Shown one piece after another: positions 548 to 55,792 of a DNA stretch of 64,000 nt. The notes under the pieces were generated by a model. The model searched no databases. It had not been told where the DNA came from and worked only from the letters and a program-made list of their open reading frames with translations. The first letter of the stretch is position 1. Every line of letters starts with the position of its first letter. Made by a program: the position numbers and the translations under genes. The stretch is taken from assembly GCF_007050985.1 (NCBI RefSeq), contig NZ_VHSF01000002.1:186001-250000 (forward strand), written 5' to 3'. Source of the DNA: Christiangramia sabulilitoris (GTDB lineage Bacteria > Bacteroidota > Bacteroidia > Flavobacteriales > Flavobacteriaceae).

Positions 548-572
548 TAACAAATAGAAAAATTATAAGACT

Positions 573-2183: not shown

Positions 2184-2201
2184 TATAACAATAGATTAAA
2201 A

Positions 2202-3341: not shown

Positions 3342-3356
3342 GGAATATCATAAGGT

Positions 3357-3388
3357 AAAGGGGCTATTTAATCATAGCCCCTTTTTTT
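3357..3388 (+). terminator. Rho-independent terminator after susCDE
   Basis: A perfect hairpin with arms GGGGCTA/TAGCCCC, extended by A/T pairs and with an 8-base loop, is followed by a run of T. It lies 15 bases after the SusE-like stop codon and 14 bases before the GH13 start, so the GH13 gene probably depends on read-through or on its own start signal. Confidence 0.85.
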
Positions 3389-3401
3389 ATAAAAAAATTA
3401 T

Positions 3402-6764: not shown

Positions 6765-6767
6765 AAG

Positions 6768-7481
6768 ATGAAAAAGATATTGGCTATATATGTATTAGGA
6801 TTTTTATTGATCACCTCCTGTGACAGTGATTCTCCTCCGGCTCCCACACCCGAACCGGATGTAAAAGCCCCATCAGAAGCGAATTTAAGCTTACCTGAAA
6901 ACAATAAAGAATGCGAACAGGGTGAGATAAACGGAAATAATGCCGTTGTAGAATTTCGCTGGCAAGCCTCGGCAGATACAGATAACTATGATTTGAAGGT
7001 TACTAATTTAGACAGTAATGTTAATACGGTAAAAGCCGGTCTCACCTCAACGGTAGCTGAAGTAAGCCTTGAAAGAGGACATCCTTACTCATGGCAGGTT
7101 ACCTCAAAAAACAGTGGGGCTATATCGAACAATTCCAGTACATGGCGATTTTACCTGGCAGGTGATGGAGAATCCAACTTTGCACCATTCCCGTCAAATG
7201 CTGTATCTCCAACGCCGGGAGCAACTGTAAATCCAGACAATGGCAAGGTATCCTTAATATGGGAAGATGTTCAGGATCCAGATGGTGATTCAGTTACTTA
7301 CACTATATATGTGGATACTACCGACGGTTATCAAACAACTAAGCCAGAATGGAGCAACATTTCCGGGACAAGTTTAGAGATATCTGTTGAGACAAATACA
7401 GTTTATTACTGGCGAGTATTATCCAGCGATGGAAATAATTCAGCATCCACAGGTGTTTTCACCTTTAAAACATCCGGATAA
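6768..7481 (+). CDS. Lipoprotein with two fibronectin type III-like domains
   Basis: A 237-residue protein starting 3 bases after the GH13 stop, so translationally linked to it. The signal peptide ends LLITSC (Cys18), followed by a Ser/Asp/Pro-rich tether. Two repeats of about 100 residues follow: VVEFRWQASADTDNYDLKV with YSWQVTSKNSG, and VSLIWEDVQDPDGDSVTYTI with YYWRVLSSDGN. The W...D...Y...YYWRV pattern is that of Fn3 or Ig-like domains in Bacteroidota surface lipoproteins. No catalytic motif is visible. By position it may take the SusF slot, or help hold the GH13 enzyme or glycan at the surface. Function unproven. Confidence 0.75.
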   Translation: MKKILAIYVLGFLLITSCDSDSPPAPTPEPDVKAPSEANLSLPENNKECEQGEINGNNAVVEFRWQASADTDNYDLKVTNLDSNVNTVKAGLTSTVAEVSLERGHPYSWQVTSKNSGAISNNSSTWRFYLAGDGESNFAPFPSNAVSPTPGATVNPDNGKVSLIWEDVQDPDGDSVTYTIYVDTTDGYQTTKPEWSNISGTSLEISVETNTVYYWRVLSSDGNNSASTGVFTFKTSG

Positions 7482-12146: not shown

Positions 12147-14729
12147 TTATTGAATCCTCACACTTCTGATGCCAACAGCATGCGGCTGCTGAAGTTGCTC
12201 CTCTTCTAATCCCGGTCCTATGGAAAACTGGATCGCTTCTACCTCCTCCATTTTTAGACCACCTTTATAGGAATGATCAAAGTAATAAGGCAGAAATCCG
12301 GGATATGGTCGCGGCAACGTAACCGTTCTTACCGGTTCGAGATCTTTAAGATCGACCTTTATTTCCTGTAATTCTTCTGAAAGTTCAATGGTCTTTCCAA
12401 AGGCCGCTCCGTTTCTCATTATCAAAGCTACCTGGATTTTACCAGAGGCATCTGCCAGGCTTCTCGCCTCAAGAATCAGTTTATTTTTATCTGATATTGA
12501 TCTTGCTTGCAGTTTATCTAAAAAGTTATACCTGAAGGAATAATCGTCAACAGGATCTGCATGCAGGTTTTCAATATCCTCCTCGAATAACTTATCCATT
12601 CTAACCTGGAATTCCGCTTCATTAGGACCTACCGGGACTACATTATTCCCCCTGTTCCATCCCCTTACTACATTACCTGAATCTGTGGCCGCGTTAAAAA
12701 GATTGACCGGAATTCCTTGATCCAGAATAGCAGTTTCAAATTGCAGATCTGAATGGAAGTCCCAGTCGTCAGGGCTACCTTTTACTCCTCCTGGAAAAGT
12801 AAAATTTCCAGCGGTGGTAGAAACGATGATCCTGTATTTCAGGAAACCATTGTTCAGCATACTTTCGGGCACTTGTGCAGAATAATCATAATTGTTTTCG
12901 GCTTGCAATTCTATAGACTCATAATTATTCCCATTCTGTAACCAGGCTTCAACTTTAGTGACAGGATCTTTAGAAACCAAGGTCGCTTTGATCCTGATAG
13001 GTGTGCCCTCTGTAATTGTGGTCCCCGGTTCGTGAACCAGGTAGGTCTTGTCTACCGTGCTTTTCTGCGCCTCGAAGACTGACAGGTCGTAATTTTTATC
13101 GTGATCGTACGCGGAAATTTCAAATTCTATCCCTTCAGCTTTCAGCAAATATGTGCCTGGAGCGACTTCAAATTGTTTTCCTTGCGCCTGGATCGAAGTA
13201 TTATTTCCTTCATTTAATCCTGAAACCTCGAAATTTTCAGCCAGGTCTTTAAGGTGCAGCTCCATCTTATTTTCTTTCCAGCTAATCACCGAAACAGTTT
13301 TCTCCAGACTATTGCTGCCAAACGGATTTCTAATAAGAATTGGGTCTGGCATTACTTCTAACCTCCATACTCCATCTTCCAGTTTATCCAGGAAATAAGC
13401 ACCTTTACCTTCATACTTTGCAATTTCAGAATTTCCATGTCCCGCGATTTGCATTAATTCAGAAACCTGCTTTGGTTCAACTCCAGTTGAATTCGTGTAA
13501 ATAAATTTTTCTCCGGAATTATAAGTGGCAACATCGCCTTGATAACTGATCTTAAAATCCCCAAATTCAAGATTTTCAGGATAAGTTCCAAGATCCTCAT
13601 TCATAGGAACCTTATGAAAGATCTCTGAAGCGATCATCAGCGCCAGCGCCTTGTGCGGAGTATAATTCAGGTTCATATAATGCGTATTGTACTCGGTATT
13701 GGCATAGGCTAGAAACGTTGGATCATAGGCAAAATGTGTTGCCAGCTGTATTCCGGCTTCCCTGAAACTCCTCGCCATTGCCGGATACATATAAGATCTA
13801 TTCACATCTGCTGCATCGAACTCATACACCAGTTTGGCCTTATTATTTTCTTCGATAACACCGTCAAACGGAATATTATAATCATTCACATTTGGCAAAA
13901 GATTACCCTGCAATTCCTTCTGAAAACCAAGCCCCGTGGGATACCACTGGAAGGTTCCCCCATCTATTTCTGAAGTGAAATAAGTTTCGGTAAGATGTAC
14001 GCTATGGCTCACATTATAAAAGATCGGCTTTTTCGTACCGGTACTTCTCATCGCCCTAACCATTTTATTGATGAACGATTTCACCTCCTCTGGAGTCCCG
14101 CGGTGATGCGGTTCATTACTGATCTCAAAGGCAATCAGATTCGGTTCGTTCTTATAGGCAACACCAGTGTAAGGGTTCACATGCTCAAGAAACTGACTCA
14201 GATAATTCTCCTGTGCCTTGATGGCTTCAGGATCGATAAGACTATTTTCTTTTCCATATTTGTTGGAAAATCCCGGAGTATCTTCATCAGGCTCGGGCCA
14301 GCCGTTTCCCCAGTAGGCAATGGGGGTGATCACATAATTGATGTCGCGCTTCTTTAATTCGTTCAGCAAATAATCGAAGGCCTCTAAATGCTCATTTTCG
14401 ATCAGATTTCCCTTTTCATCACTTATTTCGGTATCCCAGACATGAAGGCGGTACAGGTCAAAGTTCAACCGGGTGAAATGATAGATATCCTTATTCATTT
14501 CAGCTTTGATATCTAAACCTTTCTTTTCTGCCGATCTATAAGCATGTGCAAAGGGCGAAGAATAATTTACCCCGAAACCATGAACTTCTTCGTCGTTATG
14601 ACCCCATCTCATGATGCCGGAATCATCTACATAAACATCTCCCTTTTGTTGATTTTGTGCGCTTAATCCGGTTAGAGCCATGATTAAACTAAGAGTCCAA
14701 AGGTAAAAATTCAATTTTAGTTTTGTCAT
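12147..14729 (-). CDS. Secreted glycoside hydrolase, GH5-like clan A enzyme
   Basis: 860 residues with a Sec signal peptide (cleavage near LSA-QNQ). The catalytic barrel covers about 35-400: YRLHVWDTEISD, ITPIAYWGNGW, then FEISNEPHHRG with candidate acid/base Glu206 in an NEP motif, and KLVYEFDAADVNRS with candidate nucleophile Glu303. The rest is beta-rich (Ig-like TLVSKDPVTKVEAWLQNG and a jelly-roll-like tail), suggesting accessory binding modules. No lipoprotein cysteine and no T9SS tail are visible, so it is periplasmic or released. It follows the TIM-barrel gene by 17 bases in one transcript next to the galactose genes. Substrate is unknown; a beta-galactoside or mannoside is inferred from context only. 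Confidence 0.75.
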   Translation of the reverse strand: MTKLKLNFYLWTLSLIMALTGLSAQNQQKGDVYVDDSGIMRWGHNDEEVHGFGVNYSSPFAHAYRSAEKKGLDIKAEMNKDIYHFTRLNFDLYRLHVWDTEISDEKGNLIENEHLEAFDYLLNELKKRDINYVITPIAYWGNGWPEPDEDTPGFSNKYGKENSLIDPEAIKAQENYLSQFLEHVNPYTGVAYKNEPNLIAFEISNEPHHRGTPEEVKSFINKMVRAMRSTGTKKPIFYNVSHSVHLTETYFTSEIDGGTFQWYPTGLGFQKELQGNLLPNVNDYNIPFDGVIEENNKAKLVYEFDAADVNRSYMYPAMARSFREAGIQLATHFAYDPTFLAYANTEYNTHYMNLNYTPHKALALMIASEIFHKVPMNEDLGTYPENLEFGDFKISYQGDVATYNSGEKFIYTNSTGVEPKQVSELMQIAGHGNSEIAKYEGKGAYFLDKLEDGVWRLEVMPDPILIRNPFGSNSLEKTVSVISWKENKMELHLKDLAENFEVSGLNEGNNTSIQAQGKQFEVAPGTYLLKAEGIEFEISAYDHDKNYDLSVFEAQKSTVDKTYLVHEPGTTITEGTPIRIKATLVSKDPVTKVEAWLQNGNNYESIELQAENNYDYSAQVPESMLNNGFLKYRIIVSTTAGNFTFPGGVKGSPDDWDFHSDLQFETAILDQGIPVNLFNAATDSGNVVRGWNRGNNVVPVGPNEAEFQVRMDKLFEEDIENLHADPVDDYSFRYNFLDKLQARSISDKNKLILEARSLADASGKIQVALIMRNGAAFGKTIELSEELQEIKVDLKDLEPVRTVTLPRPYPGFLPYYFDHSYKGGLKMEEVEAIQFSIGPGLEEEQLQQPHAVGIRSVRIQ

Positions 14730-14746: not shown

Positions 14747-15646
14747 TTAAATATCACAGATCTGTATGCCTTCACGAAGAGCCGCTAGCTTATCATCATA
14801 AGTTGGAATAAATTCCTGAGCTACAAATCCGTCAAACCCGGTAGCATGAATAGCTTCCATAATGGCGGGATAATTCAATTCCTGGGAATCATTTATCTCG
14901 TTCCTGCCGGGCACTCCCCCGGTATGATAATGATTTATGTATTGGTAATTTTCCCGGATGGTTCTAATCACATCCCCTTCCATGATCTGCATATGATAAA
15001 TATCGTAGAGCAGTTTAAAGTTAGGTTTGTTCAGCCTTTTAGCCAGTTTCACTCCCCAATCTGTGTGATCGCACATATAATCTTTGTGGTCTACTTTACT
15101 GTTGAGCAGTTCCATGACCAGATTTACATTTAGTTCCCGGGCATAGTCCAGTAAAGGAGTAAGGCCTTTTACACAATTGGTAATTCCAGTCGCCTCGTCC
15201 ATCCCATTTCGATTTCCCGAAAAGCAAATGACATTCCTGATTTTACGTTCCGAAGCCTTTTTAATAAGACCTCTATACTTTTCCTGAAGGACAGCGTGAT
15301 TCTTCAGATCGTTAAAACCTTCGGTTATACTGGCAAATACATCTGTAGCCATAGTACACACCAGGCCTTCTTTTTCTACGGTATCCCATTCAGATGGCTT
15401 TAAAAGATCAATGCCCTTTAGTCCCATTTTCGCACAGGCTTTGGCAAACTTTTCAAGCGGGATATCTTGGTAACACCACCTGCAAACCGAATGGTTAATT
15501 TTTCCCGAAATGGAATAAGGAATCCATACCTCAGTCTTTGAATTTAGTTCTGAGGCAAAAACACCTGAAATACCGGGAACACTTAGAATCCCTGCACCCA
15601 GGCTAAGATTCTTAAGCAATTTTCTTCTGTTCAATCGATCTGCCAT
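14747..15646 (-). CDS. Exported xylose-isomerase-like TIM-barrel protein (hydroxypyruvate isomerase family)
   Basis: 299 residues. The N-terminus NRRKLLKNLSLGAG (Arg7-Arg8) is a twin-arginine-type signal followed by a hydrophobic stretch ending VFASEL. The body is an AP-endonuclease-2/xylose-isomerase-like barrel: MGLKGIDLLKPSEWD, NVNLVMELLNSKVDHKDYMC, KLLYDIYHMQIMEGD, YHTGGVPGRNEI, and GFDGFVAQEFIP near the end. The conserved Glu, Asp and His of these segments are the usual metal and substrate ligands. It is first in a two-gene operon with the GH5-like hydrolase and carries the shared palindrome 28 bases upstream of its start. It may isomerise or epimerise a sugar released by the hydrolase; unproven. 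Confidence 0.82.
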   Translation of the reverse strand: MADRLNRRKLLKNLSLGAGILSVPGISGVFASELNSKTEVWIPYSISGKINHSVCRWCYQDIPLEKFAKACAKMGLKGIDLLKPSEWDTVEKEGLVCTMATDVFASITEGFNDLKNHAVLQEKYRGLIKKASERKIRNVICFSGNRNGMDEATGITNCVKGLTPLLDYARELNVNLVMELLNSKVDHKDYMCDHTDWGVKLAKRLNKPNFKLLYDIYHMQIMEGDVIRTIRENYQYINHYHTGGVPGRNEINDSQELNYPAIMEAIHATGFDGFVAQEFIPTYDDKLAALREGIQICDI

Positions 15647-15673
15647 GGCATATATTTTTCTAAAATTAAGAAT

Positions 15674-15692
15674 AAATGTAAATATTACAATT
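15674..15692 (-). promoter_or_regulatory. Candidate NUDIX-regulator operator upstream of the TIM-barrel/GH5 operon
   Basis: AAATGTA-AATAT-TACAATT is a 19-base inverted repeat with one mismatch, the same form as the site at 16485-16503. It lies 28 bases before the TIM-barrel start. A near-consensus -7 box on the reverse strand (TAATTTTA, 15661-15668) lies directly downstream in the direction of transcription, so binding here would block the promoter. Confidence 0.6.
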
Positions 15693-15722
15693 ATTATTCA
15701 GAAAAATAATACCAGGTAAAGA

Positions 15723-16427
15723 TCAGGCTATTTCGAAGTTGTATCCCGATTTTAAAAGTTTCTGATAATTCTCGTAATTGAATTTGTATAAAAAGGCGCC
15801 TCTTTTACTTGTGGACTTATCTTTCTCGTCCAGTTTTTCCAAGACATTAAATGAAAAAACCTTTTTCCTGAAATTTCTTGGGTCGAGTTCTTTCTGGTAG
15901 ATCGCTTCGTATAATAACTGTAGCTGCGGGATGGTGAATTTCTCCGGCAGTAATTCGAATCCAATGGGCTGATACCTGGCATTTTGCCTTAATTGTCTTA
16001 ACGCGTCCTGTACCATAAGATCATGATCCAGAATTAAAGCAGGCAGATCATCAATTTCGAACCATTTAGCACCATGTTCTTCTACTACCTGTTCATTATA
16101 ATCATCGATCCTGATCAAAGCATATTGGGCTACTGAAATACAGCGATAACCGGGATCCCTGTCCTTTTTGCCATAACTTTTTAATTGCTGCATAAATACA
16201 TTCTCGAGCCCGGTAGCTTCATGCAATACCCTTTGTCCTGCTACCTCAAGGTCTTCGTCCAGCCGAACAAAACTCCCTATCAGGGACCACTCTCCGCTTA
16301 AAGGTTCTACTTTCCTCTTAAATACCAGAAGTTTTAATTTACCTTGGTGTAAACCGAAAATGATACAATCTGTGGCCACATACATTTTCTCTTTCACCTG
16401 ATAGAAATCCGGGGTATTTTGAGTCAT
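15723..16427 (-). CDS. NUDIX-fold transcriptional regulator (NrtR/AraR-like), probable galactoside regulator
   Basis: 234 residues. An N-terminal NUDIX domain (CIIFGLHQGKLKLLVFKR, then EWSLIGSFVRLDE) is joined to a C-terminal winged helix with the NrtR-type segment FTIPQLQLLYEAIYQKELD and RNFRKKVF. The NUDIX box is degenerate: at residues 66-71 the catalytic RExxEE reads RVLHEA, so hydrolysis is probably lost and the domain likely serves as a ligand sensor. Family knowledge: B. thetaiotaomicron AraR is such a protein and controls arabinose genes. Here the gene lies between the GH5-like operon and divergent galK-galT, and a shared palindrome precedes both. It is therefore inferred to control galactose or galactoside use. 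Confidence 0.88.
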   Translation of the reverse strand: MTQNTPDFYQVKEKMYVATDCIIFGLHQGKLKLLVFKRKVEPLSGEWSLIGSFVRLDEDLEVAGQRVLHEATGLENVFMQQLKSYGKKDRDPGYRCISVAQYALIRIDDYNEQVVEEHGAKWFEIDDLPALILDHDLMVQDALRQLRQNARYQPIGFELLPEKFTIPQLQLLYEAIYQKELDPRNFRKKVFSFNVLEKLDEKDKSTSKRGAFLYKFNYENYQKLLKSGYNFEIA

Positions 16428-16484
16428 TTTTAAATTTAAATTTTGATAAAGATAGAGATTTCAAAATTTTTCAAAAATCATATT

Positions 16485-16513
16485 AAATGTATATTTTACA
16501 TTTATTACCTTTG
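16485..16513 (+). promoter_or_regulatory. galK promoter with overlapping perfect palindrome (candidate NUDIX-regulator operator)
   Basis: AAATGTA-TATTT-TACATTT (16485-16503) is a perfect 7-5-7 inverted repeat. Two bases later comes an exact -7 box, TACCTTTG (16506-16513). The palindrome covers the -10 to -35 area, a repressor-like position. It is also 57 bases upstream of the divergent regulator gene, so autoregulation is possible. Confidence 0.72.
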
Positions 16514-16535
16514 AGTTGATATCAAAAAAAATATT

Positions 16536-17699
16536 TTGAAGAATATCACATCTTTTACTAAAAAACCTAAGGATCATGAGAACAATGATTTCGAACTCAT
16601 AGTATTCTCACCGGGCCGTATCAACCTTATTGGGGAGCATACAGACTACAACAACGGTTTTGTGATGCCTACTGCAATCGACAAGAAGATCATCCTAAAG
16701 TTTAAGAAGAATGGAACGAAAGACTTCTGCCGAATCTTTAGTAAAACCTTTCAAAAAGGATTTGAATTTCACCTGGATAAAACTATAGAAAAAGGCAAGG
16801 GTTGGGAAAATTATATACTTGGTGTGGTACAGGAGATCATCAGTAATGATCTAAAACCTGAAGGTTTTGACTGCCTTATCGAAAGCAAATTACCGGTGGG
16901 TGCCGGCATAAGCTCCTCTGCAGCCCTGGAATGTGGTGTCGCCAGTGGAATTAACGCTCTTTTTGATCTGGGACTAACCGATCTCGAGATCGTGAAATTG
17001 TCTCAAAAGGCTGAAAATGAATTCGTAGGATCCAACTGCGGAATCATGGATCAGTTCGCCTCGGTTATGAGCAGGAAAGGAACAATTATAAAACTTGATT
17101 GTCTAAATCTTGAACCTGAATATATTCCTGCAGATTTCAAAAACTGTAAATTATTATTGTTGAATACCAATGTTTCTCATAACCTGGCCGACAGCGACTA
17201 TAATTCACGGCGTGAAGAATGTGAAACGGCCGTGAAGATCATTCAGAACGAATTTCCTGAAATAGCATCCCTAAGGGATGTTAACTTTGAAATACTGAAG
17301 AATTTCAAAAATAAACTCTCTGCGAAGATGTATGATCGCTGTCTGTACGTTCTTAAGGAAAATGAGCGCGTTTTAGCTGCGGCCAATGAACTTAAGTCTG
17401 GTAACCTGAAAAGCTTCGGAGAGCTCATGTATGCTTCTCACGAAGGTCTTCAAAATCAATATGAAGTTAGTTGTAAAGAGTTGGATTTCCTGGTAGATCA
17501 TTCCAGGAATAAAGATTTCATTTACGGCTCCCGTATGATGGGCGGCGGTTTTGGTGGCTGTACCATCAACCTTATTGAAGAAGATCGAATAGATTCCTAT
17601 ATCCAGGAAGTTTCAGAAGCATATTTACAGGAATTCAATATCAAACTGGATGCGATTAGTGTGCTACCAGACCAGGGCACTCAGATTTTGAAAAATTAA
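16536..17699 (+). CDS. galK: Galactokinase
   Basis: 387 residues, a normal length. The start is TTG at 16536; no in-frame ATG precedes the first signature, and the promoter box ends 22 bases upstream. It phosphorylates galactose to galactose-1-phosphate, the first Leloir step. GHMP-kinase motifs are intact: SPGRINLIGEHTDYNNG (25-41), LPVGAGISSSAALECG (119-134) for ATP binding, the catalytic Asp172 in GIMDQFAS, and GSRMMGGGFGGCTINLI near the C-terminus. It is followed 4 bases later by galT. Regulation is probably through the palindrome overlapping its promoter. Confidence 0.96.
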   Translation: MKNITSFTKKPKDHENNDFELIVFSPGRINLIGEHTDYNNGFVMPTAIDKKIILKFKKNGTKDFCRIFSKTFQKGFEFHLDKTIEKGKGWENYILGVVQEIISNDLKPEGFDCLIESKLPVGAGISSSAALECGVASGINALFDLGLTDLEIVKLSQKAENEFVGSNCGIMDQFASVMSRKGTIIKLDCLNLEPEYIPADFKNCKLLLLNTNVSHNLADSDYNSRREECETAVKIIQNEFPEIASLRDVNFEILKNFKNKLSAKMYDRCLYVLKENERVLAAANELKSGNLKSFGELMYASHEGLQNQYEVSCKELDFLVDHSRNKDFIYGSRMMGGGFGGCTINLIEEDRIDSYIQEVSEAYLQEFNIKLDAISVLPDQGTQILKN

Positions 17700-17703
17700 T
17701 ACC

Positions 17704-18744
17704 ATGAATAGCGAGCTGAATAATATTCCGCATAAAAGATATAATATACTTACCGGGGAATGGATCCTGGTTTCCCCGCATAGAACTAAAAGACCATGGC
17801 AGGGAAAAACCGAAGAAAATAAATCTCATAAAAAAGAAACTTATGATCCATCCTGCTATTTGTGCCCAGGAAATACGCGGGCAAGCGGAGAAACAAATCC
17901 AGACTATAAAGAACCCTATTCGTTCATAAACGATTTTTCATCCTTACTCCCAGATTCACCTGAGATAAATTTCCAGGAAGGTTTGCTAAAGGCGGAAAGC
18001 GAAAGAGGTATCTGCAAAGTGGTCTGCTTTTCTCCAGATCATTCGCATACTTTACCACTCATGGAAGTTGAAGATATCACCAGGGTTGTACAGACCTGGA
18101 AAAAAGAATATCTGGAATTAGGCGCGGAAGAGGATATAAACTATGTGCAGATCTTTGAAAACAAAGGGGCGATCATGGGTTGCAGCAACCCACATCCTCA
18201 CGGACAGATCTGGTCACAATCTTCCATACCTACCGAGATCCTGAAAAAATCTTCAAAATTCAGGGAATACTGGGAGCAGCATAAGAAAAGTATTTTATCA
18301 GATTATTTAGAGCAGGAACTCGAAGCCGGTGAAAGGATCCTGGATGAAAATGAGCATTTTGTAAGCCTTATTCCTTACTGGGCGGTCTGGCCTTTTGAAG
18401 CGATGATCATCCCGAAAAGACATCTTCAGCATATTGGCCAGTTAAATGAAGCCGAAGAAGAAGCATATGCCGAGATCATTAAAAAACTCACTATTAAATA
18501 TGATAATCTTTTTGAGACCTTTTTCCCCTACTCTTCAGGAATTCACCAGATTCCAACAGACGGGAAAGATTATCCAGAATGGCATTTTCATATGAGCTTT
18601 TACCCGCCATTACTTAGATCTGCTACCGTAAAAAAATTCATGGTCGGCTATGAAATGTTCGCAGGACCACAACGGGATATCACAGCAGAGCAGGCAGCTG
18701 CCAGGTTGAACGATTTATCGCCAATACATTATTCCTTACAGTAA
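17704..18744 (+). CDS. galT: Galactose-1-phosphate uridylyltransferase
   Basis: 346 residues. It exchanges UMP between UDP-glucose and galactose-1-phosphate, the second Leloir step. The active-site motif NPHPHGQIW holds nucleophile His166. The zinc ligands Cys51, Cys54, His115 and His164 correspond to Cys52/Cys55/His115/His164 of the E. coli enzyme. The second domain contains IPYWAVWPFEAMIIPKRH and HQIPTDGKDYPEWHFH. It is co-transcribed with galK (4-base gap) and ends at a bidirectional terminator. No galE lies in the window, so the epimerase must be encoded elsewhere. Confidence 0.96.
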   Translation: MNSELNNIPHKRYNILTGEWILVSPHRTKRPWQGKTEENKSHKKETYDPSCYLCPGNTRASGETNPDYKEPYSFINDFSSLLPDSPEINFQEGLLKAESERGICKVVCFSPDHSHTLPLMEVEDITRVVQTWKKEYLELGAEEDINYVQIFENKGAIMGCSNPHPHGQIWSQSSIPTEILKKSSKFREYWEQHKKSILSDYLEQELEAGERILDENEHFVSLIPYWAVWPFEAMIIPKRHLQHIGQLNEAEEEAYAEIIKKLTIKYDNLFETFFPYSSGIHQIPTDGKDYPEWHFHMSFYPPLLRSATVKKFMVGYEMFAGPQRDITAEQAAARLNDLSPIHYSLQ

Positions 18745-18807
18745 AAAAGAATTCATAATTTTCAGGGATATACTAGAACATCCAGCCAGGTTATACCAAT
18801 TAAACAT

Positions 18808-18842
18808 AAAAAAACCGGGATTTTAGATTACCCGGTTTTTTA
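18808..18842. terminator. Bidirectional terminator between galT and the symporter gene
   Basis: AAAAAACCGGG and CCCGGTTTTTT form a perfect hairpin with an 11-base loop. A runs upstream and T runs downstream let it work on both strands, serving the two convergent operons. Confidence 0.9.
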
Positions 18843-18864
18843 ATCTTACTATATTTTAAGTTGA

Positions 18865-20514
18865 CTATGCGAAATATGCATAGATCCCGATCACAATTAC
18901 TATGATCATAACTCCTACTGGTTTAACGTATTTCCATGGCTTAATATCCACCTGCTTGGTATGCTCCTGTAAATAAGGCACCTCTCTGGGCCATATCTTT
19001 CCAATAATCAACATAATTGCAACATTCAGAACAAATAGGATCGCCATCACGTCTAAGAAGTGAGGATAGGCACTCGCTTCTACCGCGGCTAGTTCTGCAA
19101 CCCCGGACACCCCGTTAGCCTTAGCATCTGCAACGGCCTGATCCTGGAAATATGGCTGCAGCACGAATTGGCTGATTATATATAAAACAGAACCAGAAAC
19201 CACCCCAATTTTAGCTGCGATCGCAGGTACAAATCTGGTTAAATAACCAACCACAATGATCGTAAGGATTGGAATACTGTAAATACCATTCACCTCCTGT
19301 AAATAAGCAAAAAGACTACCCGCATCTGCAATAAATGGAGCGATGAACATCGCAGCGATCGCCAAAAATGTTCCGAATATCTTACCATATTTTACTACTG
19401 TTTTCTCTGTCGCTTCCTTATTTATATGTTGCTTGTAAATATCGATCCCAAAAAGTGTGACCGAACTGTTAAGTACACTATTAAATGAACTTAGTATCGC
19501 TCCAAAAATTACTGCGGCAAAGAAACCTATCAGGGTACTTGGCATTACTCTGTTCACTAATAATGGATAAGCTTCATCGGCATTTTCAAGATCTGCTCCA
19601 AAAATATGGAAGGCAATGATTCCCGGTAACACAACGATAATTGGACCTAAAATTTTAATAAATGAAGCAAGCATTAAACCTTTCTGACCTTCTTTCAGGT
19701 TCTTTGCGGCCAGGGCTCGCTGGATGATCTGTTGATTAGTACCCCAGTAAAATAACTGTACCAGCATCATCCCTGTAAATAGAGTATGGAATGGTACCGG
19801 GCTGGTTTCTGCTCCCATAGACTGAAATTTCTCAGGGTTAGATTCCATTAACGTAGTAATACCTTCAAAGAAATTTCCGTCGCCTATGATGATCAATCCA
19901 AAGATTGGTACAAGAACACCTCCTACTAGAAGGCCAATTGCATTAATACTATCAGAAACTGCTACCGCTTTTAAACCTCCAAAAACGGCGTATATAGAAC
20001 CTACAATTCCAATTCCCCAAACACAGATCTTTATGGCGGCATCATCTGATACATTTAACAGGGAAGGCACATCAAACATACCGCTGATAGCGACAGACCC
20101 CGAATACAGGATAATTGGCAATAATACAACCACGTAGCCGGTTAGGAACAGGGCTGATGTTATTGTCTTGGTGGTAACATCATAACGCTCTGCCAGAAAT
20201 TGAGGCACTGTAGTAAGTCCGCCCTTGAGATATCTGGGCAGTAAAAAAATTGCCGTTACGACAATCGCAATTGCGGCCAGGGTTTCCCAGGCCATAACAG
20301 ACAGGCCATTGGCATAAGAACTTCCGTTTAGTCCAACGATCTGTTCTGTAGAAAGGTTTGTTAATAATAAGGATCCGGCAATTACCCCGGCTGTAAGACT
20401 CCTACCCCCCAAAAAATAACCGTCACTGGTAGATTCATCTGTTTTTCTGGTAGCGAAGTAGGCAATTATGGCAACAAGCACCGTAAAGCCCACAAAAGAT
20501 AGAATTCCAATCAT
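18865..20514 (-). CDS. Sodium:solute symporter (SSS/SGLT family), probable sugar transporter
   Basis: 549 residues with about 13-14 predicted membrane segments. The first is IGILSFVGFTVLVAIIAYFA. SSS hallmarks follow: GYFLGGRSLTAGVIAGSLLL, NLSTEQIVGLNGSSYANGLS (the SGLT core), ATRKTDESTSDG, and FFAAVIFGAILSSFNSVLNS with the Ser residues of the sodium site. Family knowledge: it imports a sugar together with sodium. It is last in a reverse-strand operon behind galactose mutarotase (38-base gap) and convergent with galT, so galactose is the likely substrate. The sequence alone does not prove specificity. Confidence 0.92.
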   Translation of the reverse strand: MIGILSFVGFTVLVAIIAYFATRKTDESTSDGYFLGGRSLTAGVIAGSLLLTNLSTEQIVGLNGSSYANGLSVMAWETLAAIAIVVTAIFLLPRYLKGGLTTVPQFLAERYDVTTKTITSALFLTGYVVVLLPIILYSGSVAISGMFDVPSLLNVSDDAAIKICVWGIGIVGSIYAVFGGLKAVAVSDSINAIGLLVGGVLVPIFGLIIIGDGNFFEGITTLMESNPEKFQSMGAETSPVPFHTLFTGMMLVQLFYWGTNQQIIQRALAAKNLKEGQKGLMLASFIKILGPIIVVLPGIIAFHIFGADLENADEAYPLLVNRVMPSTLIGFFAAVIFGAILSSFNSVLNSSVTLFGIDIYKQHINKEATEKTVVKYGKIFGTFLAIAAMFIAPFIADAGSLFAYLQEVNGIYSIPILTIIVVGYLTRFVPAIAAKIGVVSGSVLYIISQFVLQPYFQDQAVADAKANGVSGVAELAAVEASAYPHFLDVMAILFVLNVAIMLIIGKIWPREVPYLQEHTKQVDIKPWKYVKPVGVMIIVIVIGIYAYFA

Positions 20515-20552
20515 AATGTTTTCTTAAAATTTTTCGGTTAAATATAGAATTA

Positions 20553-21551
20553 TTATTTCACAGAAAAAGCAAAAGTGATATTGTTTTCATAGATATCACC
20601 GGGCTTTACCAAACTTGATGGAAAATTCCTAAAGTTTGGAGCATCGGGATAATTTTGAGCTTCCAGGGCCACAGCGGGATATTTTTTATCAATATTACTA
20701 AGATATGTCCAGGTTTCCGGTAAGCTTTCTGGCGAATATACCACCAGAACCGGCTGATTGCTGGAGACTTTCATTTTGATTCCGCTTAACGGGGAAAACA
20801 ACTGCGCCTGTACCTCATCTTCCTGGACGTCCAAAATATAAACATCGTCCAGCTCGCGGTTACCCAGCAACTTATTCTCACTATAATCTTTAGCATGCTC
20901 CTTCAATTTAGTGAGATTGCCCGTTGGCAGGTTATTTTCATCCAGCTCGAGAATTTTAGAGGCATGAAGCTGCATAAAATGATCGCTCACACTGCCTGAG
21001 CCATTTAGATTAAAATAAGAATGATTGGTTAGGTTTACTATAGTAGCCCTATCTGTTTTTGCGGTATACCTTATCCTAATCTCGTTATCTTCAGTAAGCG
21101 TAAAGGTGGCGCGAACTTCCAGGTTACCCGGGTAGCCTTCTTCCAGGTGTTCACTTCTATATGACAGAGTCACCGATGGATTTTTACCTTCATGAACATT
21201 CTCAAAATTCCAGAATTTATATTGAAATCCGTATTTGCCACCATGTAAATGGACGCCATCGGTATTATGTTCCAGAATATATTCCTTTTCTGAAATATGG
21301 AATTTACCCCCCGAGATCCTTCCGGCAAACCTGCCAATAGTAGCTCCAAAACATTTATTTTGATCGTGATAGGCAGGCGTTAAATATTCTTCTGCAGATC
21401 TGGGACCTACCACTACATCGATTAGTTCATTCCTTTTATTACGCGTTTTAAAGCTGAAAATCGCAGCCCCGTAATTCATTATTTGCAACTTGCTATTGCC
21501 AGAATTTACAAGGTCTACGACCTTAAGTTCAGATGTCTGGGTCTCATTCAA
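20553..21551 (-). CDS. galM: Galactose mutarotase (aldose 1-epimerase)
   Basis: 332 residues, with a TTG start at 21551 placed 2 bases after the previous stop; no in-frame ATG is nearby. It interconverts beta- and alpha-galactose, preparing the substrate of galactokinase. Catalytic landmarks are visible: GVHLHGGKYGFQYKFW with His103, NLTNHSYFNLNG with His177, and VALEAQNYPDAPNF with catalytic Glu297. There is no signal peptide, so the enzyme is cytoplasmic. It is between a DUF885 peptidase gene and the symporter gene, probably in one transcript. Together with galK, galT and the symporter it completes galactose uptake and entry. Confidence 0.93.
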   Translation of the reverse strand: MNETQTSELKVVDLVNSGNSKLQIMNYGAAIFSFKTRNKRNELIDVVVGPRSAEEYLTPAYHDQNKCFGATIGRFAGRISGGKFHISEKEYILEHNTDGVHLHGGKYGFQYKFWNFENVHEGKNPSVTLSYRSEHLEEGYPGNLEVRATFTLTEDNEIRIRYTAKTDRATIVNLTNHSYFNLNGSGSVSDHFMQLHASKILELDENNLPTGNLTKLKEHAKDYSENKLLGNRELDDVYILDVQEDEVQAQLFSPLSGIKMKVSSNQPVLVVYSPESLPETWTYLSNIDKKYPAVALEAQNYPDAPNFRNFPSSLVKPGDIYENNITFAFSVK

Positions 21552-21553
21552 GA

Positions 21554-23377
21554 TTATCTGTTTTTTGATTTAATCCATGAATCCACCCTAGATTCCAGAA
21601 TCGTTAACGGTAACGCTCCATCGGTAAGGATAACATCATGAAATTGCCTGATATCAAACTTCTCACCCAGTCTTGTTTTCGCTTTCTCCCTGAGCTCAAG
21701 GATCTTATTCATCCCTATCTTATAGGCCGTTGCCTGTCCCGGCATTACAATATGGCGTTCTACCATTTTAACACAGGCACTTTCCGCGGCGGGGGTATTT
21801 TCTTTATAATAATCGATCCCTTCCTGCCTGGTCCACTTTTTAGCGTGAATTCCGGTATCTACCACAAGCCTGCATGACCTCCAGAGTTCCATAGAGAGTC
21901 TTCCAAAATCTGAATACGGATCTTTATAAAAACCTATCTCTTTCGGTACATATTCACTGTAGAGTCCCCAGCCCTCTACATAGGCCGTAAAAAAGCTGAA
22001 TTTTCTAAATTCAGGAATACTGTCCAGCTCCTGGGCGATAGCGATCTGCATATGATGCCCGGGAATACCTTCATGGTAAGCCAGTGCCTCCATTTCGTAT
22101 TTCGGCATGGCAGCCATGTCATAAAGATTGGCATAATAGGTGCCGGGCCTGGAACCATCTATAGCTGGTTGCTGATAAAAAGCTTTTCCGGCACTTTTTT
22201 CCCGGAAAGGTTCCACAGCTTTCACCACGATATCTGCTTCGGGCCTGGTATTAAAAAGCTCCGGAAGCATTTGCTCCATATTATTAATAATCTGTTTTGC
22301 TTTCTTTAGATAAGCCGCTTTACCTTCTTCTGTATCTTCATAATAGAACTGCCGGTCATTTTTCATAAATTCAAAAAAGTCCTGCAGGCTGCCTTCAAAT
22401 CCTACTTCTTCCATGATCTTTTCCATCTCACCATGGATCCTTGCCACTTCTTTTAATCCGATCTCGTGGATCTCATCGGGAGAAAGATTGGTGGTAGTTA
22501 CCCTTTTAAGAGTAATATTATAAAATTCATCTCCTTTAGGGAATTTCCAAACTCCAGCCTCTTCTGTAGCTCTTTTTTCCTGATTCTCGAGAAAATCTAT
22601 CAAGCCTTCATAAGCCGGTTTCAGATGGTCTACCAGTGCTTTTTCTGCCTCGTTCTTGAGCTTCGTTTTTTCTCCTTCGGGGATCATCAGTTTATCAACC
22701 TTGGAGGAGAAGTCTTCCATAAGGGTGCTGGATTCCATGGATTTTGCAAATGGTTTTCCTTTGATGAGATTTCGGGAAGCATCCAGGGTTCGCTCAAAAA
22801 CAAATTTTGGTGGAATAATCCCGTTTTGCTCACGTAGTTTCAATTGCTCAATGATATCTGCCATTACCTTTTCCAAACCAACCAGTCTGGAAATATACGC
22901 CCGGGCATCTGCCACAGAATCTATTTTATGCATATTAATTAAAAATGCCGGTAATTCTGCATGCAGCCCATGCATCTGTTCTATCGGGTAAGAATAGAAA
23001 CGATACTCATAATCATCGATCTCATTCTCTACCTGTCGCTTGTAAAGCTGAAAACTCAATTTAGTTTCTTCATCCAACGTATTGGTATCTATCTTTTCCA
23101 GATACTCAAGCCGCTTTTTAGCTTTCTCGAGATCTTCAGCATATTTTAAATTGGAGTAATCGTCCCACTTGTCATAATTGGTTTTCATCCCTCGCCGGGT
23201 TTGAGTTTCCGGTACGTCTTCTACATCCTTTTGATATTCTTTAGCAAAATACTCGTTGAGTTCTGCTGAAGCACTTTTACGAACTTCTGCAGAAACTTCA
23301 TCATCCTTTTGGTCGGTGCCGCAGGAAATTATGGTCATCCCCAGCAAAACCGGTAGTATATACTTCTTAAATCTCAT
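21554..23377 (-). CDS. DUF885-family lipoprotein, probable zinc metallopeptidase
   Basis: 607 residues with a lipoprotein signal (MTIISC, Cys19). The family motif YHEGIPGHHMQ, an HExxxHH-type zinc site, is present, as are YVEGWGLYSEYVPKEIG and VMPGQATAYKIGMNKILELR near the C-terminus, where the Gln/Tyr pair is conserved. Family knowledge: DUF885 proteins resemble gluzincin peptidases and several act on short or unusual peptides; the exact substrate is not known here. Its start overlaps the end of the upstream CocE-like gene by 11 bases and its stop is 2 bases before galM. It is therefore translationally coupled to both, an unexpected company for galactose genes. Confidence 0.88.
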   Translation of the reverse strand: MRFKKYILPVLLGMTIISCGTDQKDDEVSAEVRKSASAELNEYFAKEYQKDVEDVPETQTRRGMKTNYDKWDDYSNLKYAEDLEKAKKRLEYLEKIDTNTLDEETKLSFQLYKRQVENEIDDYEYRFYSYPIEQMHGLHAELPAFLINMHKIDSVADARAYISRLVGLEKVMADIIEQLKLREQNGIIPPKFVFERTLDASRNLIKGKPFAKSMESSTLMEDFSSKVDKLMIPEGEKTKLKNEAEKALVDHLKPAYEGLIDFLENQEKRATEEAGVWKFPKGDEFYNITLKRVTTTNLSPDEIHEIGLKEVARIHGEMEKIMEEVGFEGSLQDFFEFMKNDRQFYYEDTEEGKAAYLKKAKQIINNMEQMLPELFNTRPEADIVVKAVEPFREKSAGKAFYQQPAIDGSRPGTYYANLYDMAAMPKYEMEALAYHEGIPGHHMQIAIAQELDSIPEFRKFSFFTAYVEGWGLYSEYVPKEIGFYKDPYSDFGRLSMELWRSCRLVVDTGIHAKKWTRQEGIDYYKENTPAAESACVKMVERHIVMPGQATAYKIGMNKILELREKAKTRLGEKFDIRQFHDVILTDGALPLTILESRVDSWIKSKNR

Positions 23378-25238
23378 CTTTTTTCTCTTCTAGAACACTA
23401 AACCTGATTGCTGAATCTCCATAAACAGTATGGGTTTGTTTCTGAAAATCTTTTTCTTCCGCTTCAAAGATATTGTCCACATAGGTCTGCGGATTTCTAT
23501 CGATCAAAGGAAACCAGGTACTTTGAACCTGCACCTGCAGTTTATGCCCTTTTTTAAAGGTATGATTTATTCCCTGTAATTTAATGTTTACATCTGTTTT
23601 GGTATTAGGTTCAAAAGGTTGTGGATCATCAAAACCGTTCCTGAACCTGCCGCGCATCACCTCGCTTCTTACCATCATATGATAATTGCTCATTTTAAGG
23701 TGTGGCATGGTTTCTTCATAATTCTCGGCATCTGGCGGATATACATCGATTACTTTTATCACCCAGTCTCCTGCAGTTCCGGTTGTAGCCACCTTTAGCA
23801 TTGCTTCTATAGGCCCCACGATCTTCATATCTTCCTCGAGAACTTCAGTTTCAAAAACCAGTACATCTGGCCTTCTGGCGGCAAAACGCTGGTCACCCGT
23901 CATATATTCACGCGGTGTAAACACCATTTTGATCTCATTGTTATAAGAAACAGGCTTATCAGGATCACTAACATATTCTTCCTTATTGTCTGTAGGATCT
24001 TCTGTAAATCCCTGGCCATCTCCCAGGTACCAGGTTTTGGAAGTGGTGTTTTTTGGAGGCCATTCAGTATAATCATTCCATTGCCTCAACCCGGTATCAT
24101 AAATATGAGCTTCAGCAAGTCTTAACTGGTCTTTGGTCTTTTTCTTCAGAAAATGATTAAAGAACTCAGTTTCATAATCTTTCTGAAAATGTGTGGAAAT
24201 ACTGTCTCCAAAATAGACATTGCCAACTCCCTGTCTTCCGGTTTCCCTGGCCCAGTCACCGTGACTCCAGGGTCCAAATACAATACTATTATAATTATCA
24301 CTGTGCCCCTCTATACTTTTATAAATGGCAAAAGGACCATACAGATCTTCAGCATCAAATAATCCACCAACGATCATAACCGCAGGTTTGATATCTTTCA
24401 TATGCTGAACAATCCCTCTTTTTTGCCAGAAATCGTCATAATTTGGATGCTCCTTTAATTGCTGCCAGAATTCATTATCTTCTTTATAATATTTATCCAG
24501 ATTGCTCAAAGGGCCTGCATCCATAAAGAACTGGTACTGGTCTTCGGTATTCAATTTTGGAAAATCATACCATGCAGTATCTGTTGGCTTATCTTTTTGA
24601 TACCCGAATACGGCTGTAGCTCTCCAGTAGCTTAAAAGGTATGCTCCGTTATGATGAAAATCGTCAAAAAAGAAATCACCAATACTAGCCTGTGGAGAAA
24701 CCGCTTTTAGTGCCGGGTGCCCGCTAAGAAGTGAATAGGTAGCATAAAAGCCGGGGTAAGAAATTCCCCAGGTGCCTACCCTGCCATTATTATTTTCCAC
24801 ATTATTAACCAGCCACTCAATAGTATCATAAGTATCGCTGGCTTCGTCTACCTGTTTTCCTTTTTTATTAGGGATATAAGCTCGCATGTTGTCATATTTG
24901 CCTTCGCTCATCCATCTCCCACGCACATCCTGATAAACGATGATATTTCCCTGTTTCATAAGGAACTCATTCGGTCCTATCTTAGAACGAAATTGATCCT
25001 CCCCATACGGCCTGCTGCTATAAGGAGTTCTTTGCATCAAAATTGGATATTCCTGTGAAGTGTCTTTAGGCGAATAGATCGTAGTGTGAAGTTTCACACC
25101 ATCCCTCATGGGGATATCCACCTCCATTTTATGGTAATTTTCTTTTACCTTATATTCTGAAGTAGTCTGAGCAAAAACGGGATTAAGCGCAAGGAGGAAT
25201 AATAAAGTAAAAAAGGAGCAATTATAAATTTTCATCAA
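23367..25238 (-). CDS. Secreted CocE/NonD-family hydrolase (X-Pro dipeptidyl-peptidase, S15-like)
   Basis: 623 residues with a Sec signal peptide (NPVFA-QTT). The alpha/beta hydrolase part has the start typical of the family (MEVDIPMRDGVKLHTTIYSP) and the nucleophile Ser160 in TWGISYPGFYA. Candidate Asp295 or Asp298 lies in GGLFDAEDLYG, and His326 in VFGPWSHGDW. The C-terminal jelly-roll (X-Pro dipeptidyl-peptidase C-terminal domain) covers the last ~220 residues. Family members cleave X-Pro peptides, acyl esters or beta-lactam-like amides. It is first in the operon running into DUF885, galM and the symporter. A peptidase role is likelier than esterase given the DUF885 partner, but that is inference. 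Confidence 0.9.
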   Translation of the reverse strand: MMKIYNCSFFTLLFLLALNPVFAQTTSEYKVKENYHKMEVDIPMRDGVKLHTTIYSPKDTSQEYPILMQRTPYSSRPYGEDQFRSKIGPNEFLMKQGNIIVYQDVRGRWMSEGKYDNMRAYIPNKKGKQVDEASDTYDTIEWLVNNVENNNGRVGTWGISYPGFYATYSLLSGHPALKAVSPQASIGDFFFDDFHHNGAYLLSYWRATAVFGYQKDKPTDTAWYDFPKLNTEDQYQFFMDAGPLSNLDKYYKEDNEFWQQLKEHPNYDDFWQKRGIVQHMKDIKPAVMIVGGLFDAEDLYGPFAIYKSIEGHSDNYNSIVFGPWSHGDWARETGRQGVGNVYFGDSISTHFQKDYETEFFNHFLKKKTKDQLRLAEAHIYDTGLRQWNDYTEWPPKNTTSKTWYLGDGQGFTEDPTDNKEEYVSDPDKPVSYNNEIKMVFTPREYMTGDQRFAARRPDVLVFETEVLEEDMKIVGPIEAMLKVATTGTAGDWVIKVIDVYPPDAENYEETMPHLKMSNYHMMVRSEVMRGRFRNGFDDPQPFEPNTKTDVNIKLQGINHTFKKGHKLQVQVQSTWFPLIDRNPQTYVDNIFEAEEKDFQKQTHTVYGDSAIRFSVLEEKKDEI

Positions 25239-25349
25239 TAGGATTTTTTAAAACGCCTAAAGATAGAAATTAGGCTTTTAAACCTAAAAAATTTTAAACC
25301 TTTATGTTATCGGGTAACTTTTGAATTTTTAATAGCCAGGGGAACCCGA

Positions 25350-26663
25350 TTACGAAATACAAATCTTCAGTATCCTGCCATCATTTTCTTCTACGGCAAA
25401 CCGGTTATCTGCCCTGTGGTTGATGATCCAGACTATTTCATTATCTGAACATAGTATCCAGACATGTTCTTTTTCTGGAAGGGAGAATTTCTCATCCTTA
25501 AAAAAATCGCTTAGTTTTTTTCTCCCGTTCATCCCAAAAGGATAGAAATAATCTCCTTTTTTCCACTTTCTTATAACCAGCGGAAATTTTAGTTTATGCT
25601 CAGGAACATAAATACAACTTTTAGAAGCAGCCCCAAGTTTATCGGTTTCATTGAAGTGAAAAGTACCCAGCTCTGGTATCATCACCAGATCTTCCTCCCG
25701 TTCCAAACTGTATTCCTTACCCACAGAATTTTCCTGATGTTCGGTAAGCAAAAGCTTATTCCTGTCCTTAATAAGCCGATGAGAGTCAGACAAGACCATC
25801 TTGCCGGTTTGAGCGTCCAAAAGATTATAAACATCATTCCATTCAGTAAAACCGAAGGATTTCAAAAGCTGATAAAGGACCTGCTTTTGATTGGGGACTT
25901 TTTTTAAAAATCCGATATCTATGGCATATCCATAAGTTACTTTTTGGACCAGTTTGGGATAAAGCAAACTAATATAGTCCTCAACCAAATCCAGGCTTTC
26001 CTGTAAATGCTGCTGGGTCTTAGCAAAGCTATCCAGGAAATGAGGATTTATCTCTTCAAGTACAGGTACGATATTATGCCTTATTTTATTCCGCATGTAT
26101 TTATCAGAAGAATTGCTGCTGTCTTCCCGCCACTTATAATTCTTTTTTCGTGCAAAATCTTCTATTTCAGACCTTTTGAATTCCAGCAATGGTCTTATCA
26201 CTTTATTACTGTCTTTTTTAATACCGGTAAGACCTTCAGGGCCGGTTCCCCGGATAAGGTTTATAAGAAAGGTTTCCAGATTATCATTTGCATGGTGGGC
26301 GGTAAGCGTATAATCAAACTGCGCAGAATTGCTTAGTTCAGAAAACCACTCATATCTCAGTTCCCTAGCTGCCATCTGGACAGACAACCCATTATTTTCA
26401 GCATATTGTAACGTATCAAAACTTTCTGTATATACCTCAACCTCGAGAAAATCTGCCAGGTCTACCACAAATTTTTCATCACCGTCACTTTCATCCCCTC
26501 TTAAATTAAAATTACAATGGGCAATGGCAAAATCCAGTTTTGCCGTATGGCACAAATGAGCCAGCACCACACTGTCAACACCTCCACTAACCGCGAGCAG
26601 TAACTTACTTCCGCATAAATAAGGATAGTCAGATTTTACAAGATTTTTGAAGGATTTTTCCAT
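25350..26663 (-). CDS. tilS: tRNA(Ile)-lysidine synthase
   Basis: 437 residues from the ATG at 26663. A GTG two codons upstream is less likely because an exact reverse-strand -7 box (TATCTTTG, 26671-26678) would place the transcript start at about 26664. It converts C34 of the AUA-reading tRNA-Ile to lysidine using ATP, and is essential for decoding AUA. The PP-loop LAVSGGVDSVVLAH (SGGVDS) is intact, as are AHCNFNLRGDESDGDE, TAHHANDNLETFLINLIRGT, the following TGIKKDSNKVIRPLLEF and REDSSNSSDKYMRNKIRHN. The C-terminal TilS domain includes GMNGRKKLSDFFKDEKF. Confidence 0.96.
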   Translation of the reverse strand: MEKSFKNLVKSDYPYLCGSKLLLAVSGGVDSVVLAHLCHTAKLDFAIAHCNFNLRGDESDGDEKFVVDLADFLEVEVYTESFDTLQYAENNGLSVQMAARELRYEWFSELSNSAQFDYTLTAHHANDNLETFLINLIRGTGPEGLTGIKKDSNKVIRPLLEFKRSEIEDFARKKNYKWREDSSNSSDKYMRNKIRHNIVPVLEEINPHFLDSFAKTQQHLQESLDLVEDYISLLYPKLVQKVTYGYAIDIGFLKKVPNQKQVLYQLLKSFGFTEWNDVYNLLDAQTGKMVLSDSHRLIKDRNKLLLTEHQENSVGKEYSLEREEDLVMIPELGTFHFNETDKLGAASKSCIYVPEHKLKFPLVIRKWKKGDYFYPFGMNGRKKLSDFFKDEKFSLPEKEHVWILCSDNEIVWIINHRADNRFAVEENDGRILKICIS

Positions 26664-26670
26664 AGTCACT

Positions 26671-26678
26671 CAAAGATA
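26671..26678 (-). promoter_or_regulatory. -7 promoter box of tilS
   Basis: Read on the reverse strand it is TATCTTTG, an exact match to TAnnTTTG. It lies 7 bases from the tilS ATG, which implies a nearly leaderless mRNA. No clear TTG -33 element was seen at the right spacing. Confidence 0.6.
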
Positions 26679-26760
26679 CAAAGGCACCATTTAAATCTTC
26701 CCGCTATGAACAGACTTTTTTCTGCTATTTAAAATTTTAAAATCGCAAGCTTTGGGAAAC

Positions 26761-54930: not shown

Positions 54931-55266
54931 ATGGGCCTTACTAAAGCAGATCTTTTTACACCGGAACAAAATGAGCTTGCCTGCCTGGCGAAAGCTTTCG
55001 CCCATCCTGCCCGTGTGGCGATCATTGAACATTTACTCAAATCCAACAGGTGTATTAATGGTGACCTGGTTAATGAACTGGGTCTGGCCCAGGCTACCAT
55101 AAGTCAGCACCTTAAAGAGCTTAAGAATATTGGATTGATTCAGGGTAATATTGAAGGGGTTTCAATGAGCTATTGTATCAATACCAAAAAATGGAACAGC
55201 GTGCAACAACTGTTCAATACTATGTTTGATAGAATCACAAACTGCGGTATCGACGATTGTTGTTAA
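54931..55266 (+). CDS. arsR: ArsR-family arsenic-responsive repressor
   Basis: 111 residues. The winged helix-turn-helix is textbook: CLAKAFAHPARVAIIEHLLK, GDLVNELGLAQATISQHLKE and LKNIGLIQGNIEGVSMSYCI. The usual alpha-3 metal site (ELCVCDL) is absent here (Cys41 in RCINGDLVNEL stands alone). Instead the C-terminus ends NCGIDDCC (Cys105, Cys110, Cys111), a plausible three-thiol As(III) site. That arrangement recalls ArsR of Acidithiobacillus ferrooxidans, whose C-terminal cysteines sense arsenite. It is first in the arsenic operon, which it should repress until arsenite binds. Confidence 0.92.
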   Translation: MGLTKADLFTPEQNELACLAKAFAHPARVAIIEHLLKSNRCINGDLVNELGLAQATISQHLKELKNIGLIQGNIEGVSMSYCINTKKWNSVQQLFNTMFDRITNCGIDDCC

Positions 55267-55782: not shown

Positions 55783-55792
55783 TCCCTGATTT

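Follow-up and report, generated by a model that had tools for sequence, protein, structure and literature searches.

A regulator derived from a NUDIX enzyme appears to switch galactose genes and two probably exported proteins in Christiangramia sabulilitoris

We asked how the galactose genes of Christiangramia sabulilitoris are switched, and whether the degenerate NUDIX protein encoded beside them governs both these genes and a neighbouring pair for sugar processing. In the window, by which we mean the whole stretch of 64,000 nucleotides analysed, galT (galactose-1-phosphate uridylyltransferase; 17704..18744, + strand) starts 4 bases after galK (galactokinase; 16536..17699, + strand, with a TTG start in the ORF list), and both products score above their equivalog cut-offs (TIGR00209, 495.7 bits against 102.1, and TIGR00131, 315 bits against 226.65, the latter with Pfam support). 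The regulator gene (15723..16427, - strand) diverges from galK and encodes 234 amino acids with a degenerate NUDIX domain and an NrtR winged helix (Pfam NUDIX, NrtR_WHD and AraR_C, all above cut-off). On the same strand lie the genes for a xylose-isomerase-like TIM-barrel protein (14747..15646; PF01261, E 5e-21) and, 17 bases downstream of it, for a probably exported GH5-like protein of 860 amino acids (12147..14729; PF00150, a marginal 26.1 bits against a cut-off of 23.5). By eye, the N terminus of the TIM-barrel protein is twin-arginine-like (NRRKLLKNLS) and the GH5-like protein has a signal peptide and an NEP motif. The TIM-barrel protein scored under the equivalog cut-offs of its hydroxypyruvate isomerase and psicose epimerase relatives, and the nearest solved relatives (PDB) of the GH5-like protein are GH5 beta-mannanases, which it matches weakly (E 2.1e-6 at best). 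Elsewhere in the window, inspection by eye found two further features: at 56-7481 a SusD-like gene, the final part of a SusC-like gene and other genes for lipoproteins and large exported proteins, probably a polysaccharide utilisation locus, and at 54931-57458 closely spaced genes for an ArsR-like regulator, an ACR3-like transporter and a phosphatase-like arsenate reductase.

The motif AAATGTA-N5-TACA(T/A)TT occurs in two exact copies, one upstream of the -7 box of galK-galT and one upstream of that of the TIM-barrel/GH5-like pair. Predicted operator 1 (AAATGTATATTTTACATTT, 16485..16503) is a perfect palindrome between galK and the divergent regulator gene, and the galK promoter has an exact match to the -7 consensus, TAnnTTTG (TACCTTTG, 16506..16513, + strand), 2 bases past it. 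Predicted operator 2 (AATTGTAATATTTACATTT on the - strand, 15674..15692) lies upstream of the TIM-barrel/GH5-like pair, with a -7-like box one base off the consensus (TAATTTTA, 15661..15668, read from 15668 to 15661 on the - strand) 5 bases past it. The initial annotation had reported both palindromes, these spacings of 2 and 5 bases, and a regulator gene between the palindromes whose NUDIX box REUXEE had become RVLHEA; all of these were confirmed, the palindromes to the base. Besides the two operators, the window held no match to the motif with 0-1 mismatch, and the part from 16504 to 26885, where the window's symporter and mutarotase genes lie, held none with up to 2 mismatches.

We dropped the plain motif count as evidence, since it gave no clear excess in the window or in the genome. 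With up to 3 mismatches, the window held 45 matches against 32.8 +/- 7.3 expected, a number reached by 6 of 100 shuffles, and at 0-1 mismatch the 3.2-Mb genome held 6 and 6 matches on its two strands, at 8 places, against 8 and 11 for the reversed control. Operators 1 and 2 are the only exact matches in those 3.2 Mb. The motif stands above chance because its placement is conserved in relatives, not because of its count.

The regulator was present in 23 of 24 genomes of the genus (source genome included) at 68-100% identity, the exception being a 67%-complete draft (G020). It adjoins galK in 18 of these, again counting the source, and a palindrome lies upstream of galK in all 18, each scoring so high that no more than 2 of 300 simple Markov resamplings of that sequence matched it. 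The TIM-barrel gene adjoins the regulator at 21 genus loci, and at 18 of these the palindrome precedes the TIM-barrel gene; in two (L025 and L029) the gene directly follows the regulator, whose own upstream region has the palindrome, and at L019 the TIM-barrel gene lacks a site. In other genera of the family, 15 of 20 loci with adjacent regulator and galK had a canonical site (score of at least 17), 3 had AAAAGT-N7-ACTTTT, and the remaining 2 (L095 and L097) had a site upstream of the regulator, heading an apparent regulator-galK unit. Three relatives with galK (L158, L169 and L187) had weak sites only.

Searched with a 17-base core pattern, the 24 genus genomes gave 48 matches, and the control gave 29. 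Coordinates assigned 17 of the 48 to galK or regulator promoters and placed 1 behind a regulator, ahead of a sulfatase gene; of the remaining 30, 21 fell inside ORFs and 9 between ORFs, 2 of these before galE. The initial annotation would have given up its proposal had the motif been equally common in random intergenic DNA or absent beside orthologous regulators, and the proposal withstood both checks: the motif is found beside these regulators, and the 30 matches beyond the galK/regulator sites compare with 29 control matches in all. A large regulon was rejected, since these 30 show no excess over the control. We also rejected galE, the third Leloir gene, as a general member: a clear site was present at 2 of 25 genus galE loci (in G004, and at a second copy in G016), with a third marginal (16.5), the source genome's galE had no clear site (15.5), and the best score among 23 galE loci of other genera was 16.0. 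These counts suggest occasional capture of galE and no general rule. In G010 and G004 (L043, L044 and L045), the regulator or a 63% identical paralogue adjoins sulfatase-like or sulfatase-modifying-factor-like genes, with a palindrome before the sulfatase gene at 10483-10501 of L043, hinting at sulfated galactans.

We then considered genomes in which the regulator and galK are apart. galK was sought in 19 regulator-bearing genomes and proved to be adjacent after all in 2, leaving 17 unlinked. Sixteen of the 17 unlinked galK units have a site scoring at least 17.5 of 20, and the other (L119) has one of 17.0. The site lies at galK itself in 13 and ~1 kb upstream in 4, and in L107 and L111 it overlaps a galK start that was extrapolated from the alignment. 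The four upstream sites, first taken as misses, scored 18 to 20 in L116, L117 and L120 and 17.0 in L119; in L116 and L117 the stretch before galK resembles, by eye, the end of a mutarotase gene. As controls we took the first 20 listed of 224 family genomes with no regulator match at E 1e-60, in which more divergent regulators are possible. Fourteen of these 20 have galK, at 16 loci, where the best palindrome within 3.6-4.1 kb scored 14 to 17, so that none of the 16 reached 17.5 and the best control (17.0) ties with the weakest unlinked positive, L119. We attach no formal probability to 16 of 17 versus 0 of 16, because the genomes are related and the controls may hold divergent regulators.

Within the source genome, the regulator is the only protein to match NrtR_WHD. 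Both PF00293 and PF21906 match above their cut-offs, and the protein has the NUDIX-like N-terminal domain and C-terminal winged helix of the NrtR family. Its best solved relative is BtAraR (PDB 5bs6; E 2.3e-72 over 217 aligned residues), the L-arabinose-responsive regulator of Bacteroides (PMC4666351). Its catalytic NUDIX box is impaired, with RVLHEA in place of REUXEE and the first Gly of the box replaced by Ser48, although RVLHEA is not peculiar to this regulator, BtAraR having RVLAEL.

L-arabinopyranose is D-galactopyranose minus C6. As described in the crystallographic report, BtAraR binds L-arabinose through Arg34, Arg86 and His131, in a pocket lined by Tyr5, Phe36, Gly47, Gly48, Phe49, Val92 and Phe129 (PMC4666351). 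The regulator keeps the three hydrogen-bonding residues and has Val36, Ser48, Cys92 and Leu129 in the lining. We surveyed 142 distinct proteins, 71 of which belong to neither linkage class: residue 48 is Ser, Ala or Asp in 46 of 46 members linked to both galK and galT and Gly in 25 of 25 ara-linked members, and residue 129 is Leu in 44 of the 46. Gly48 persists in L159 and L184, members of the galactose group that have at most one of galK and galT. Residue 36 of BtAraR is close to C4 and C5 of the sugar, so that a smaller residue there, together with Ser48, would suit the extra CH2OH of D-galactose. From the gene linkage and these pocket changes suited to C6, we infer that the effector is D-galactose or a close derivative.

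The pocket signature alone is no proof of galactose, because subclades with the same pocket adjoin non-galactose genes, and pocket residues as the sole proof were weakened by those beside an hmgA-like (homogentisate-dioxygenase-like) gene. This gene lies beside the regulator in a subclade of six loci, one of which (L083) also has a histidine-utilisation cluster; in four genomes of the subclade, the unlinked galK is still preceded by a palindrome. In a second subclade, of five members, the regulator lies behind other genes, which in L087, where the neighbours were scanned, encode an alpha/beta-hydrolase and a PD-(D/E)XK nuclease-like protein; four of the five genomes have the galK palindrome ~1 kb upstream.

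The effector could instead be a phosphorylated or nucleotide derivative such as galactose-1-phosphate or UDP-galactose rather than free galactose. The ligand of the Shewanella NrtR is ADP-ribose (PMC4666351), and Val36 and Ala67 of the regulator are smaller than Phe36 and Leu67 of BtAraR, which replace phosphate-binding residues. However, the arginine at position 89 that binds ADP-ribose in SoNrtR (PMC4666351) is replaced by Gly in all the clade members tabulated and in BtAraR, and Tyr5 is retained. We regard such a derivative as an unlikely effector, although it is the most probable of the alternatives considered here.

The position of the operator bears on how the regulator would act. We examined 63 galK upstream stretches and dropped 7 in which the 250 bases searched held no site. 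In 42 of the remaining 56, among which three pairs share identical sites and flanks, TAnnTTTG lies exactly 2 bases past the palindrome; it lies further on in 5 and is missing in 9, several of which had short remaining sequence. Since the operator sits just before the -7 box, a protein bound there would be expected to block RNA polymerase, and repression is suggested by this position and by analogy with BtAraR, which L-arabinose releases from DNA (PMC4666351). Inducible sugar genes can also be activated, yet an activating role for this regulator seems very improbable to us, both because a site directly upstream of the -7 box is a polymerase-blocking position and because BtAraR lets go of DNA when it meets its sugar.

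We thus consider it highly probable, from comparative evidence, that a NUDIX-derived repressor sits on both predicted operators and is released by D-galactose or a close derivative, freeing the promoters of galK-galT and of the TIM-barrel/GH5-like pair. In the mechanism that we propose, the regulator would be a repressor of the NrtR family, dimeric if it resembles BtAraR, which without galactose would occupy AAA(T/C)GT-N7-AC(A/G)TTT immediately before the -7 box, blocking RNA polymerase at both promoters. D-galactose or a close derivative would then bind in the former catalytic pocket and turn the winged helices as in BtAraR, so that both promoters become free. As far as sequences can tell, the comparison supports the fold and family, the operator and where it lies, its joint occurrence with the regulator (linked and unlinked) and a parallel change of operator bases and DNA-reading residues; binding of the regulator to the operators is what we infer from these. 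galK-galT and two probably exported sugar-processing proteins thus appear to be switched by a regulator descended from a dead NUDIX enzyme. The reading of the initial annotation, a galactoside-responsive cousin of AraR that links external glycan cleavage to the Leloir pathway, is thereby supported in its main lines. That the pair cleaves an external galactoside stays conjecture; co-control with the galactose genes suggests that the GH5-like and TIM-barrel proteins may release or convert a galactose-containing sugar outside the cytoplasm.

A further alternative is that the regulator is a plain AraR orthologue, an L-arabinose regulator that lies beside galK by chance. BtAraR is indeed the best solved relative, aligning across nearly the full protein, and all three of its hydrogen-bonding contacts to L-arabinose are retained. 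However, of the 24 genus genomes 16 lack araA, as does the source genome, whereas 23 have the regulator, and a separate paralogue, 48-49% identical, occurs in seven genus genomes (G002, G003, G004, G006, G007, G008 and G013), all of which have araA; G010 has araA without the paralogue. By coordinates, the paralogue lies at most ~18 kb from araA in six of the seven and far apart in G006, and at the one paralogue locus scanned for neighbours these were araA, a class II aldolase, an FGGY kinase and an arabinofuranosidase. In the five genomes read, the paralogues keep the BtAraR pocket residues except Thr92 and keep Lys179, with differences at Lys184, Lys204 and Arg205, and their clearest operator, AAGTGT-N7-ACACTT (two genomes), is of the GTGT type.

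The regulator itself departs from AraR in its DNA contacts. Lys179, Arg180, Asn181, Lys184, Lys204 and Arg205 are called absolutely conserved in AraR in the crystallographic report (PMC4666351); here Lys179 is Pro and the other five are kept. The operator is ATGT-N7-ACAT rather than the GTGT type found at arabinose genes, and the neighbours (galK, galT, TIM-barrel and GH5-like) are not targets of an NAD-type NrtR. Since araA is absent and residues 48 and 179 together with the operator separate the two types, we hold it to be hardly credible, and largely refuted, that the regulator is AraR. The initial annotation had called the regulator a cousin of AraR, which stands as kinship at the level of the family; it is no orthologue, given the changes at Lys179, Gly48, Phe129 and the operator and the absence of araA.

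A tree of 143 proteins (quick LG+G4, no bootstrap, with long-branch warnings; outgroup L053 and a 43% relative linked to xylA/xylB) placed 83 in one group (SH-aLRT 95), which holds 53 members with gal neighbours and none with ara neighbours. Four further proteins with a nearby galK homologue were placed among the AraR types. At four loci from Parabacteroides and a Tannerellaceae MAG (L167, L171, L178 and L185), a galK homologue adjoins an AraR-type regulator, with araD-araA-araB also present at L167 and L178; these loci may reflect either joint control by galactose and arabinose or a kinase with another substrate. In the 34% relative at L053 (3641-8719), residue 179 is Asn, the palindrome reads AAGCGT/AAACGT and a mannitol-dehydrogenase-family gene lies nearby; this may be yet another sugar specificity within the family.

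The BtAraR-DNA crystal shows Lys179 in contact with the first G of GTGT and Arg180 intercalated at the T-G step that follows (PMC4666351). We compared these two residues with 60 confident operators, 11 from Lys179 proteins and 49 from others. The operators of Lys179 proteins have G at both half-sites in 10 cases and at one half-site in 1, whereas those of the other proteins have A at both half-sites in 44, G at both in 3 and a mixture without G in 2. The first three Arg180Gly regulators have AAAAGT-N7-ACTTTT at galK, and a search of their two genera found Arg180Gly in 9 species, namely in 7 of 7 genomes of one genus and 2 of 6 of the other, whose remaining 4 genomes had no match. This T-to-A operator occurs in all 9 species, at both half-sites in 8 and at one only in L298. 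In 57 operators of Arg180 proteins, by contrast, that A was never found at both half-sites and was found once at one half-site. A single change suffices for Arg180Gly on the tree; we rejected a count of two changes, as the second is Pro180 in L052. Independent-pairs tests of protein and operator covariation had 1-3 pairs, with which significance cannot be reached, so the covariation rests on few events. L153, from the Saprospiraceae, combines Ser48 and Leu129 with a retained Lys179, an AAGTGT-N7-ACACTT operator and an adjoining galT, and is an intermediate between the galactose and AraR types.

TGT-N7-ACA-like palindromes are common to several regulator families. Such a palindrome could belong to another regulator, for example a Crp-like one, with the NUDIX protein a bystander, and an AraR-controlled Bacteroides promoter also has a putative Crp-like site (PMC4666351), but this is scarcely tenable, since the site goes with the regulator in unlinked genomes too and is absent from the 16 galK loci of the controls, the half-site spacing is that of the BtAraR crystal operator GT-N7-AC (PMC4666351), and residues 179 and 180 contact the very bases that change.

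On balance, and with moderate confidence, we favour the wider reading of the galactose-responsive repressor as a third sugar specificity, for D-galactose, among the NUDIX-derived NrtR regulators, spread through the Bacteroidota and with its DNA code rewritten at two positions: loss of Lys179 would have turned GTGT into ATGT, and in two genera, where Arg180 has been lost, all galK operators examined show ApG in place of TpG (in one species at a single half-site). The papers cited here describe AraR and XylR as sugar regulators of the NrtR family (PMC4666351, PMC3878776), and our full-text literature search found no galactose regulator of this family among the matches listed. Such a regulator would give many Bacteroidota, marine flavobacteria included, a regulator of the Leloir pathway, and would show how a sugar sensor may move from L-arabinose to D-galactose with few changes in its pocket. 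It would also provide a handle on the two partner proteins co-controlled with the galactose genes and, if the second rewriting is true, a natural series of matched protein/operator pairs with which to probe how the intercalating arginine of the BtAraR-DNA crystal reads sequence.

Compared with known systems, the regulator stands closest to BtAraR (BT0354; PDB 5bs6/5dd4/5ddg/5deq), with which it shares the NUDIX-like and winged-helix layout, a degenerate NUDIX box, Arg34, Arg86, His131, Arg180, Asn181, Lys184, Lys204, Arg205 and the GT-N7-AC operator spacing. It differs in that Phe36, Gly48, Val92, Phe129 and Lys179 are replaced, the half-site is ATGT instead of GTGT, and the neighbourhood is galK-galT in a genome without araA. 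XylR of Bacteroides (BT0791), a predicted xylose regulator, likewise belongs to the NrtR family and serves a sugar pathway (PMC3878776). Unlike the regulator here, the xylA/xylB-linked 43% relative from a genus genome has His34 and Pro180. PDB 3gz5/3gz6, which we take to be SoNrtR, the ADP-ribose-responsive regulator of NAD metabolism from Shewanella, has the same fold and family (E 6.8e-21) but differs in its ligand, its target genes and its ADP-ribose-binding arginine, position 89 being Gly here. In enterobacteria, galK-galT are controlled by GalR/GalS, regulators of the LacI type, which do the same job as that proposed for the regulator here and belong to an unrelated protein family.
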